A model generated the notes under the pieces. The model did not search any database, was not told the DNA's origin, and saw only the letters and a program-made list of their open reading frames with translations. A DNA stretch of 64,000 bases, from NCBI RefSeq assembly GCF_018069705.1, contig NZ_CP072943.1, positions 2,543,453 to 2,607,452 on the forward strand, read 5' to 3'. The position numbers were made by a program, and so were the translations under genes. This DNA comes from Aminithiophilus ramosus. Its GTDB lineage: Bacteria > Synergistota > Synergistia > Synergistales > Aminithiophilaceae. Below are positions 39,188 through 43,309 of the stretch, piece after piece; position 1 is the stretch's first letter, and every line of letters starts with the position of its first letter.

Positions 39188-39267
39188 TAAAGGCCCTCGC
39201 GGCCGAAACGAAGCCGGGCGCAGGCCAGGCGGGACTCGAGAACGTGCCTATCGTCGGCAAAAACAGA

Positions 39268-39744
39268 TCATCTCTTCAATAGAGAAATATTTCTTCTTAT
39301 GAATTTATTTCCTGGATCATTGCCACATTTCTTGCATATTATATAATACGGCGAATTTATGAATCCGCAGGACTCACATGAATAATCTTCCTTCATCTTC
39401 TCCAGCCATTGTGTAACCCCTTTTTCTTTTCTGAATCGCGCTGATTCGAACAATTCAGCACGATGAGGCATTTGTCCTTGAAATTCCCTGAGTTCATCAC
39501 ATGGAAAATCATGACATTCCTCACAGTTATCTATTTCTTTATTCTGAGCACACTCTCTGTATCTGCAACTTCTACAATGCAGACTCAAAATCTTTGATCG
39601 ACATCCCTCGCAGGGGATGTCCTCCTTCTTTGTTTTCATTTTTTGGGCAATTCTTTCAAGTTCTTTGTCATCCTTGTTTTGAGTCGCTATATACACACCG
39701 CAGGACTCGCAAAAAAGGCCACAATACGCCACCGAATCTTTCAT
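39268..39744 (-). CDS. DUF3795 cysteine-rich protein, low-GC gene
   Basis: A 158-aa cytoplasmic protein with about 17 cysteines in CxxC and CxxxC pairs: YCGLFCESCGVY at the N-terminus, CEGCRS, HCRSCRYREC, CEECHDFPC and a C-terminal CESCGF...ICKKCG zinc-ribbon-like pair. The first half matches DUF3795, whose function is unknown; metal or Fe-S binding is likely. The ATG at 39744 follows AAAGGAG. Base composition is far lower in GC than all neighbours (from about 39255 to 39790), pointing to recent transfer. No mobile-element gene is beside it. Confidence 0.8.
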   Translation of the reverse strand: MKDSVAYCGLFCESCGVYIATQNKDDKELERIAQKMKTKKEDIPCEGCRSKILSLHCRSCRYRECAQNKEIDNCEECHDFPCDELREFQGQMPHRAELFESARFRKEKGVTQWLEKMKEDYSCESCGFINSPYYIICKKCGNDPGNKFIRRNISLLKR

Positions 39745-40008
39745 TTCGCTTTCTCCTTTACTCACCGGAGATGCTGCATAGCTTCTTCGTAACGCCTTTA
39801 TGACGCCGAATCGCGCCGCAAACGCCCTCCAGAGGTGGATCCCCCCGTCAAAACCCGAGGACCCCGAAGGCCATCGGAGCCAGACCGCCATCGGTCCCTC
39901 CCGGTTCGAGAAGCGAGCCTCTCTCGGCGTGCTGCAGGCCATGTCGTCCGCCACAAGAAGCGGCCCACCCGCCTGAGGGACAGCACCGCCATCGGGAACG
40001 GCGACGCC

Positions 40009-40755: not shown

Positions 40756-41047
40756 TGCAGAAAATCCCCTTTCGGACGTGAACAGATTCGGTCGGGGCCC
40801 GACCGGAGGACAGGGCCTTCCCGGCTTTTCCGCGGCCATGCCCGCCCCGCCGGAACCCGGTCCAGCGACAGGGCCCGCTCGGAAGCGCCGACCGGCCGCC
40901 GCGTTCCGAGTCACGGCGGCCCCGGAAGACGGGACGACCGCCTTCAAGGGCAGCTTGGCTCGTGATTCCGTTTGCGGGGGAACTATAGAGGCACGAAAAT
41001 AAAAAAAGCTGTCGAAAAAAACTGCGACGGCTACGACAAGAAAGGAT

Positions 41048-41326
41048 TCACCGACACCTCCTCTTTAGAGGAGAACCTGGCCTACGTGTCATTGAGACCA
41101 ATGCCCAACCTGTTCCATTACAGGCCGTGCATGACGTTTCATCGCCGATAACCTTGGTTTTAGCTCGTCCAGTCCCTCGGCAGGATGCACACTTTCGTGC
41201 CGGTTGGGCGACCAACACGCTGCCTTGCCCATTACAGGAAGTGCAAGACGTTTCATCGCCAAGAACCTTGGTTTTGACTCGTCCAGTCCCTCGGCAGAAT
41301 GCGCAGGTTTCAGGTCTAGTCGCCAT
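41048..41326 (-). CDS. Mini protein of two DnaJ-type zinc motifs
   Basis: A 92-aa protein built almost wholly of two copies (residues 8-35 and 46-73, period 38) of C..C.GTGR.KTKV.GDETSC..CNG.G. Each copy has the CxxCxGxG pairs of the DnaJ central zinc domain, so each should hold one Zn2+. There is no J-domain, signal peptide or membrane segment. The ATG follows GAGGAGG. It could be a stand-alone disulfide/chaperone-type or RNA-binding zinc module; the function is unknown. The tail is basic (RRPGSPLKRRC). Confidence 0.75.
   Translation of the reverse strand: MATRPETCAFCRGTGRVKTKVLGDETSCTSCNGQGSVLVAQPARKCASCRGTGRAKTKVIGDETSCTACNGTGWALVSMTRRPGSPLKRRCR
41116..41304. repeat. Internal tandem duplication, 114-base period, in the zinc mini gene
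   Basis: Bases 41116-41190 and 41230-41304 match at 66 of 75 positions by direct count. The high DNA identity (synonymous sites included) suggests a recent duplication of a 38-codon unit rather than old protein convergence. Confidence 0.8.
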
Positions 41327-41816
41327 ACTCTAGCCTCCTCTTTGATCGAATAAATTTTCACCCACTTTCTTCCCTATCCCATAAATAAACCGTTTCTGCA
41401 AGCCCGAAAGCCTCACGCGGACCTGCGGATACAAACCTGGGCTCCCTGCAAGACAGGACGATGCCAGCGAGCTTGCGGAAAGAAGACATCAAAGCCATGG
41501 GGTTCCACCTCAAGGACTATAAAGGCTTCATCCTCGTCCTCAGAGGAACGTAGTACAAGCGGAGCGGCCTTGTCAAGCGTTGATTTCATTTTTCCTACAT
41601 ACGCATGAAACAGTCTCTTCCGGCCCTTCCCGAGCCTCTCGGCCCGATCGAGGCGTTTGCCCGGGACGCGGGCCGGCCGTTCGGCGGCACCGGAGGAAGG
41701 GCTCGGCCCTTTCCGGGAAATCTCTGGAAAAAGGCAGCAAGGCCCCGACAGGCCTCCTGAGGGGGACGTCGGCGGGCCGGCTCCGTCGGACCTGGGCTTG
41801 GAAAAGGGATTGTTCG
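41327..41816. other. Gap before the tryptophanase gene with no supported gene
   Basis: Nearly 500 bases carry no convincing gene. A 30-codon frame at 41461-41553 (plus; MPASLRKEDIKAMGF...) has only a weak AGGA site and may be a remnant. A small imperfect hairpin lies near 41693-41715. GC falls below the local level between about 41327 and 41400. Confidence 0.5.
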
Positions 41817-41917: not shown

Positions 41918-43309
41918 ATGGTTGAACGCATCATGCCCGAGCCCTACCGCATCAAGATGGTGGAACCCGTCAAGGTCCCCGACAGGGACGAGAGGGAGGA
42001 GGCCCTGAAGAGGGCCCATTACAACATGTTCGGCCTCCGCTCCCAGGACGTCTACATCGATCTGCTGACCGACTCGGGGACGGGAGCCATGAGCAAGTAC
42101 CAGTGGGGTGCCCTCATGATCGGCGACGAGGCCTACGCCGGAGCGGACAGCTTCTTCAGCCTCAAGAAGGCCGTCAAGGAGATTCTGGGCTTCGACTACG
42201 TCGTCCCCACCCACCAGGGCCGGGCCGCCGAAAACGTCGTCTTCGGAACCCTCGTCAAAAAGGGCGACGTCGTCCCCTTCAACATGCCCTTCGACACGAC
42301 GCGGGCCCACATTTTCAACAACGGCGGCGAGCCGCTGGACTGCGTCATCGACGAGGCCTACCACCCCGAGGTGCAGCACCCCTTCAAGGGCAACGTGGAC
42401 ATCAAAAAGCTCGAGGCGGCCGTCGCCAAATACGGCAAGGACCGCATTCCCTTCGTCATGGTCACCATCACCAACAACTCCGGCGGCGGCCAGCCCGTGA
42501 GCCTCGAGAACCTCCGCCAGGTCTCGGACGTCTGCCGCAGCCACGGCATTCTCCTTCTCCTCGACGGCGCCCGCATGGCCGAGAACGCCTACTTCATCAA
42601 GACCCGCGAAGAGGCCTGCCGCGGCATGTCCGTCGCCGAGATCCTCAAGGAGACGATGAACACGGCCGACGCCATCACCGTCTCCTGCAAGAAGGATCCT
42701 CTCGTCAACATCGGCGGCATGGTCTGCAGCCGCACCGAGGAGCTCCACAATTCCTTCCTCCCCCGGGTCATCCTCTTCGAGGGCTACGCCACCTACGGCG
42801 GCCTGGCCGGGAGGGACCTGGAGGCCCTCGCCCTGGGACTGAGGGAGATGGTCGACGAGCAGTATCTGGCCCACCGCGTCGCCCAGGTCCGCTACCTCGG
42901 CGATCTGCTGGGCGAGGGGGGCGTTCCCTGCGTGACCCCCGCCGGCGGACATGCCATCTTCATCGACGCCGCCGCCTTCCTGCCCCACATCCCCCAGAGC
43001 GCCTACCCCGCCGACGTGCTGGGCATCGAGATCTATAGGGAAGGGGCCATCCGCGGCATCGGACTGGGCGCTCTCGCCTTCGCCACGCCCGACGAGACGG
43101 GCCGGATCGTCTACCCCAAGCTGGAGCTTTTCCGTCTTGCCATCAACCGCAGGACCTACACGAACCACCACATCGAGTTCATCGCCCAGACGATTCTGGA
43201 CGTCTACGGGCGGCGCGACGCGATCCGCTACGGCCTCAAGGAAGGCTACGCCCCGGCCGTCAAGGGGATGAAGCACTTCCTCGTCCACCTCGAACCCTAC
43301 GCCCTCTAA
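41918..43309 (+). CDS. tnaA: Tryptophanase (tryptophan indole-lyase)
   Basis: A 463-aa PLP enzyme of the beta-eliminating lyase family, splitting tryptophan to indole, pyruvate and ammonia. IDLLTDSGTGAMS, PTHQGRAAEN and the SCKKDPLVNIGG Schiff-base region (Lys pair 258-259) are intact. The close relative tyrosine phenol-lyase has Thr in the FTTT stretch and Arg (R381) in the phenol pocket. Here the stretch is FDTT (D126) and the Arg position is Leu in IRGIGLG, as in tryptophanase. Substrate choice therefore favours tryptophan. It stands alone, followed by a hairpin terminator; a leader element is shared with the NSS symporter operon. Confidence 0.88.
   Translation: MVERIMPEPYRIKMVEPVKVPDRDEREEALKRAHYNMFGLRSQDVYIDLLTDSGTGAMSKYQWGALMIGDEAYAGADSFFSLKKAVKEILGFDYVVPTHQGRAAENVVFGTLVKKGDVVPFNMPFDTTRAHIFNNGGEPLDCVIDEAYHPEVQHPFKGNVDIKKLEAAVAKYGKDRIPFVMVTITNNSGGGQPVSLENLRQVSDVCRSHGILLLLDGARMAENAYFIKTREEACRGMSVAEILKETMNTADAITVSCKKDPLVNIGGMVCSRTEELHNSFLPRVILFEGYATYGGLAGRDLEALALGLREMVDEQYLAHRVAQVRYLGDLLGEGGVPCVTPAGGHAIFIDAAAFLPHIPQSAYPADVLGIEIYREGAIRGIGLGALAFATPDETGRIVYPKLELFRLAINRRTYTNHHIEFIAQTILDVYGRRDAIRYGLKEGYAPAVKGMKHFLVHLEPYAL

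Follow-up and report, generated by a model that had tools for sequence, protein, structure and literature searches.

What could be the role of a gene that encodes the zinc-binding motifs of DnaJ and almost nothing else, and how did its two nearly identical halves arise? These questions are raised by a small gene in the stretch of 64,000 nucleotides of the Aminithiophilus ramosus genome that we analyzed (the window). The initial annotation described there an open reading frame with two tandem units of very similar DNA (66 of 75 bases alike), encoding a stand-alone DnaJ-type protein of 92 amino acids without a J-domain or a substrate-binding region. Both descriptions hold (Table 1), the 66 of 75 bases being those of codons 8-32 and codons 46-70. 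The explanation offered for the two units does not, as detailed below.

Table 1. Features at and around the gene, in positions of the window
Feature	Positions	Strand	Remarks
Two-unit zinc mini-protein gene	41048..41326	-	92 aa + stop; ORF with four CxxCxGxG motifs
Shine-Dalgarno AGGAGG	41334..41339	-	read in the sequence
Unit 1, residues 8-35	41222..41305	-	motifs 1 and 2, with the 12-residue loop RVKTKVLGDETS between them
Junction SVLVAQPARK	41192..41221	-	10 residues
Unit 2, residues 46-73	41108..41191	-	motifs 3 and 4, with the loop RAKTKVIGDETS; followed by W74
C-terminal tail, about residues 81-92	41051..41086	-	antisense across the arginine-deiminase-like remnant
Stretch absent at the same site of the same-genus genome G002	40796..41404		approximate limits; contains the zinc gene
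Remnant, 5' part of an arginine-deiminase-like gene	41003..41087	+	65/85 bases (76%) identical to an intact gene elsewhere in the genome

A stand-alone relative of the DnaJ zinc domain

The gene starts with an ATG preceded by AGGAGG, and the four CxxCxGxG motifs of its product begin at residues 8, 28, 46, and 66, forming two units 38 residues apart. In the Pfam scan, the model of the DnaJ cysteine-rich domain (PF00684) matches the protein with 34.7 bits, for a cut-off of 32.7, and no J-domain match is found at E ≤ 10. A profile of the protein and its homologs searched against the PDB puts the cysteine domain of Escherichia coli DnaJ first (E = 1.1e-8), with the four motifs in register. The two kinds of protein share these four motifs (PDB 1exk for DnaJ), but DnaJ has a J-domain and differs in its spacing. 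The succession of loop, linker, and loop is 12-10-12 residues in the window protein, whereas it is 9-18-6 in 41 and 8-18-6 in one of the 42 distinct DnaJ domains counted in the fetched loci with a pattern requiring HPD and four motifs. Furthermore, a tryptophan follows the last motif in 9 of the 10 two-unit proteins described below and in none of these 42 DnaJ domains. Around the gene, a promoter scan found nothing, Rfam gave no match, and the two small ORFs upstream have no match in Pfam.

An old layout with recently homogenized cores

The initial annotation proposed that the protein was formed by a recent duplication. The comparison with other genomes tells otherwise. The closest homolog (L027) is an 80-residue protein from an Anaerolineales metagenome-assembled genome, which has the same two units, with the same C-terminal GW, and matches PF00684 with 42.9 bits. 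From the CNG of motif 2 to the first cysteine of motif 3, the junction CNGQGSVLVAQPARKC is identical in the two proteins at 16/16 residues, and the two genes differ there at 9 bases, all of them third codon positions. Searches among the Chloroflexota gave eight more two-unit proteins with the same layout. In the first search, 13 of 396 genomes had matches of any kind: eight with two-unit proteins, all of which were used, and five with six-motif proteins only, which were dropped. The second search had 15 such genomes out of 400: two were repeats (G155 and G359), one (G765) gave a further two-unit protein (L117, used), two were dropped for having only three motifs (G872) or degenerate motifs (G625), and the others had DnaJ (4) or six-motif proteins (6). 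The nine other two-unit proteins (L027, L075, and seven more) are 27-51% identical to the window protein. The junction is 10 residues long in 10/10 of them when the window protein is included, and the 16 motif cysteines and glycines are all invariant in the ten-row alignment (A3). Given the same layout in nine other proteins, the fixed junction, and the tryptophan, the two-unit layout belongs to the family and predates the gene. Hence, we rejected a recent duplication of the whole layout on the junction shared with L027: layout, junction, and the GW at the end of unit 2 are all found in a protein of another phylum. These homologs have open frames, so that the refuting condition named in the initial annotation, a lack of homologs with an open frame, does not apply. 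Its suggestion that copy number may vary between strains finds no echo, in the only two genomes of the species that can be compared: the DNA of the gene is the same in strain L-13 (CP074691.1, locus L026; 99.66% identity with the window across 5 kb), and the number of units is constant.

What is recent in this gene is the homogenization of the unit cores, which came later than the layout. Given both protein sequences and the codon usage of the host, 58.3 ± 2.7 identical bases are expected between the cores, and 0.31% of 20,000 simulations reach the observed 66; with the gene's own codon usage the expectation is 53.9 ± 2.6, and 0/20,000 simulations reach it. A second simulation on 24 codons gave expectations of 51.1 and 51.6 for 63/72 identical bases observed (0/5,000 runs each). 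The two units use the same codon at 18 of their 21 identical residues. The base identity thus exceeds what the proteins alone would impose, which confirms the similarity first noticed and implies an event at the DNA level. This test could be extended to the 5 of the 10 two-unit proteins that have loops of equal lengths, and a large excess of DNA identity between cores was found in one gene, that of the window. In L075, L079, and L083, the cores are no more alike in nucleotides than expected, and the excess in L117 is slight (2-4% of simulations). As a case in point, the cores of L075 have 16 identical residues, yet just 6 identical codons.

Other members of the family and similar mini-proteins vary in organization. 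Five of the nine other two-unit proteins (L076, L079, L080, L081, and L083) have longer frames with an N-terminal stretch that is hydrophobic by eye. Two of these (L080 and L081), membrane-anchored as judged by eye, are encoded just upstream of two response-regulator-like genes, in two different genomes. Side-by-side arrays of three to five zinc mini-protein genes, mostly with six motifs (L078, L088, L094, L103, and L113), are found in the Chloroflexota genomes G231, G179, and G566; one of these proteins (L103) has a C-terminal extension resembling, by eye, a winged helix. Another type of cysteine-motif mini-protein, about 120 residues long, is encoded in other Synergistota (L006, L008, L012, L014, and L072). 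One such gene is on a Pyramidobacter plasmid, beside those of a LexA-family regulator and a DNA polymerase, and is annotated there as molecular chaperone DnaJ.

Signs of acquisition and genomic context

The gene stands out in its surroundings by its composition: its GC3 is 0.467, against 0.918, 0.833, and 0.893 in three neighbors. In G002, the methyltransferase and tryptophanase-family genes sit in the corresponding positions, but the match ends at position 40795 of the window and picks up again, diverged, near 41405. Among 185 Synergistota searched with the profile, 34 genomes have matches, and the match is a stand-alone protein in two of them, both of this species. The other 32 have open frames of 261-424 residues, the size of DnaJ, a class assigned by length, and by sequence too for those fetched ones that the pattern of HPD and four motifs fits. 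The low GC3, the absence in G002, and the absence from the 183 other Synergistota searched together indicate that the window gene is a horizontally acquired member of the older two-unit family. The donor was probably a relative of the Chloroflexota.

The last 12 or so residues of the protein are read antisense over the remnant of an arginine-deiminase-like gene, the intact copy of which has a Pfam ADI match of 89.9 bits; this tail is common to no homolog and cannot be aligned. Searches of mobile elements gave few leads. The window protein has no match in the phage collection and two weak ones in the plasmid collection (a 119-residue cysteine-motif protein of Pyramidobacter and a DnaJ open frame), and no match was found in viral contigs. 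L027 has seven weak matches in the phage collection; for two, the annotation of the record reads chaperone or heat-shock binding. No conserved neighbor or partner was found: L027 and L075 are surrounded by other genes than those in the window. Beyond the methyltransferase, seen from the zinc gene, is a DUF3795 gene (39221-39954; 64.2 bits) with a GC3 of 0.469 that is likewise missing at this site in G002. It seems that small foreign genes settle in the stretch that runs from the transporter to the tryptophanase-family gene.

Predicted fold and paired loops

AlphaFold models built on the ten-row alignment have a mean pLDDT of 79.6 for the window protein and 83.8 for L027. Both consist of strands only, without helices, and the tail of the window protein is of low confidence. 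The strands of the latter are predicted at residues 3-7, 16-18, 25-27, and 36-40, and in each model the first unit is framed by a strand before motif 1 and another after motif 2. Foldseek has no match at E ≤ 0.001; its top hit, the cysteine domain of DnaJ, has E = 0.055 and a probability of 0.99 (35 columns, rmsd 1.7). The Z scores given by VIA are 3.3 or less: 3.3 for DnaJA2 (52 residues, rmsd 4.4), 2.7 for BSD2 (36 residues, rmsd 1.5, one unit superposed), and 2.5 for anti-TRAP (43 residues, rmsd 4.8). One unit of the L027 model can be placed on anti-TRAP over 33 columns (rmsd 2.0, Foldseek probability 0.77). As far as models go, these weak and tied scores support zinc ribbons but no function. 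Two ways of pairing the motifs around zinc can be envisaged. A DnaJ-style pairing of motif 1 with motif 4 would fit the order and register of the motifs, the fixed linker, and the co-varying loops. A pairing within separate units, motif 1 with motif 2, would fit the strand pairs seen within one unit in both models.

In the ten proteins, a small set that we chose, loop 1 resembles loop 2 of the same protein more than loops across proteins (0.166 versus -0.195; 0/20,000 permutations, and 3/20,000 without the window gene). The lengths of the two loops are also correlated across these ten proteins (Spearman 0.80, p = 0.005). Gene conversion as a general cause of this likeness was considered and rejected for 4/5 genes on their nucleotide identity. 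Since these four genes lack a strong excess of DNA identity, a constraint at the protein level is likely there. In the window gene, we read conversion or a short internal duplication as having added to a likeness of the heads that exists at the protein level. The matching loops of the other members suggest a two-headed module whose symmetry selection maintains.

What the protein may do

Judged from its sequences, the family is one of stand-alone paired zinc ribbons, here mainly from Chloroflexota, related in its motifs to the cysteine-rich domain of DnaJ. The best explanation we can offer, tentatively, is that the window protein is a two-zinc protein-binding module, a holdase or adaptor resembling BSD2 and ZnJ2 and working without Hsp70. 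Each unit, made of a CxxCxGxG motif, a hairpin loop, and a second such motif, would hold one zinc and, in the predicted fold, display its hairpin. Since the units are joined by a junction of fixed length, two matching loops would be shown, and these could bind bivalently a protein partner or an unfolded client. The protein would then act as a holdase or adaptor lacking a J-domain, as BSD2 and ZnJ2 do, with no need for Hsp70. In the available text of PMC5818400 and PMC4428491, BSD2 and ZnJ2 are four-motif proteins without a J-domain, and in that of the former ZnJ2 holds denatured clients and has neither reductase nor oxidase activity. They are thus stand-alone zinc proteins of the same kind. 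They differ in their plastid location and in having Rubisco-related clients, of which no counterpart is known for the window protein, and the structural match with BSD2 spans only one of the two units.

The gene could also be a functionless passenger, acquired and now decaying, its 3' end cut by a rearrangement. We regard this as unlikely, though it deserves attention: the C-terminal tail is read from an antisense gene remnant, which may mean a decaying copy, and a single species holds the gene among the Synergistota searched, with two genomes that are identical over it and so uninformative on selection. The intact frame, the strong Shine-Dalgarno sequence, and the conservation of 16/16 motif cysteines and glycines speak against decay.

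Three further possibilities seem improbable to a similar degree. The first is the redox role suggested by the initial annotation, in which the protein would be a thiol-disulfide oxidoreductase or isomerase. The available text of PMC4428491 mentions a weak thiol-reductase activity in the zinc domain of DnaJ. Yet ZnJ2, a stand-alone protein of a comparable kind, neither acts as a reductase nor forms disulfides according to the available text of PMC5818400, and in the window protein two zinc sites would occupy all eight motif cysteines. The second, equally doubtful, is a zinc ribbon that binds nucleic acids or regulates transcription in the manner of the phage Q antiterminators. The PHROG families of Q-like antitermination proteins match weakly (E = 3.4e-6 and 1.6e-4), PDB chains of Q match at E = 0.013-0.065, and the tail is basic. 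However, these matches are limited to the zinc motif, a protein of 92 residues is too short to include the remainder of Q, and the basic tail stems from the remnant and is lacking in the homologs. The third concerns the whole family, which could be a mobile two-headed scaffold of zinc hairpins that grips two copies of one target or two faces of a symmetric one, or else has both heads modified at the loop aspartate like the type II pamtides. We see this as rather a long shot. In such a scaffold, the loops would be the variable working part, and the heads would be kept alike by selection, here together with gene conversion, so that both can grip.

A doubled anti-TRAP is very unlikely, even if it was for a time our leading idea, owing to a Pfam match, a TRAP gene in the genome, and a tryptophanase-family neighbor. 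TRAP is a tryptophan-sensing RNA-binding protein best known from Bacillus. In this reading, the zinc ribbons would block its RNA-binding ring, relieving the repression of tryptophan genes, and one unit resembles the ribbon of anti-TRAP (RtpA, PF15777). TRAP is present in the genome (119 bits), PF15777 matches the protein with 32.8 bits (cut-off, 32), RtpA is the top NCBIfam match of the protein and of 5/5 homologs scanned, the L027 model has one unit that fits onto anti-TRAP, and the neighboring gene at 41918-43309, of the tryptophanase family, would fit a derepression of tryptophan genes. Controls, counts of co-occurrence, and a missing helix led us to reject it. Three true DnaJ cysteine domains score higher with RtpA (42-46 bits) than the window protein (37.2, for a cut-off of 65), and PF15777 is an unspecific model that also fires in the E. 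coli and T. maritima controls. TRAP is absent from 9/9 of the homolog-bearing Chloroflexota genomes searched and present in 48 of 149 Synergistota searched, while the zinc gene is in this species only among the 185 Synergistota searched for it. The tryptophanase-family gene is also found in G001 and G002, which lack the zinc gene, so its adjacency is of little weight. At the locus, there is no Rfam T-box, and the (G/T)AG triplets near the gene, at a spacing of 2-3 bases, form no run above two. Finally, the window protein has two units and no helix is predicted at its C terminus, where, in the available text of PMC11255114, a helix forms the anti-TRAP trimer.

Least probable is a doubled precursor of a type II pamtide (cysimiditide), in which zinc would fold the hairpin and a PIMT-type methyltransferase would turn its aspartate into aspartimide or isoAsp. 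The available texts of PMC10787088 and PMC13001092 describe these as zinc ribbons of the form CxxCxGxG-Asp-CxxCxGxG, which both units match. The loop Asp is in GDET here, L027 and L075 also carry Asp in each of their loops, and the same strand has a methyltransferase gene downstream. But the window protein has two hairpins, Asp is in both loops of just 3/10 family members, and the lack of an adjacent PIMT-type partner with the extra C-terminal domain disfavors this reading. The downstream methyltransferase is matched best by generic methyltransferase models and less well by PCMT, is 95% identical in G002 where the stretch with the zinc gene is absent, and lacks WxxxGxP, a weak test since the review, in its available text, attributes this motif to PIMT-modified RiPPs of other kinds without mentioning the cysimiditide enzymes among them (PMC13001092). 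No PIMT was recognized beside L027 or L075 among the ORFs read, two of which were scanned.

Our tentative preference thus goes to a paired zinc module that binds proteins. Our literature search, mostly of non-subscription papers, found no published description of the two-unit bacterial family. The window gene also shows how identical repeats can mislead, an old repeat layout carrying here a sequence identity of recent origin. J-domain-less stand-alone zinc proteins of the DnaJ type are known mostly from plastids. With its fixed junction, its paired and similar loops, and its signs of spread between phyla, this bacterial family could offer a small and testable system for studying what such a zinc domain does on its own.
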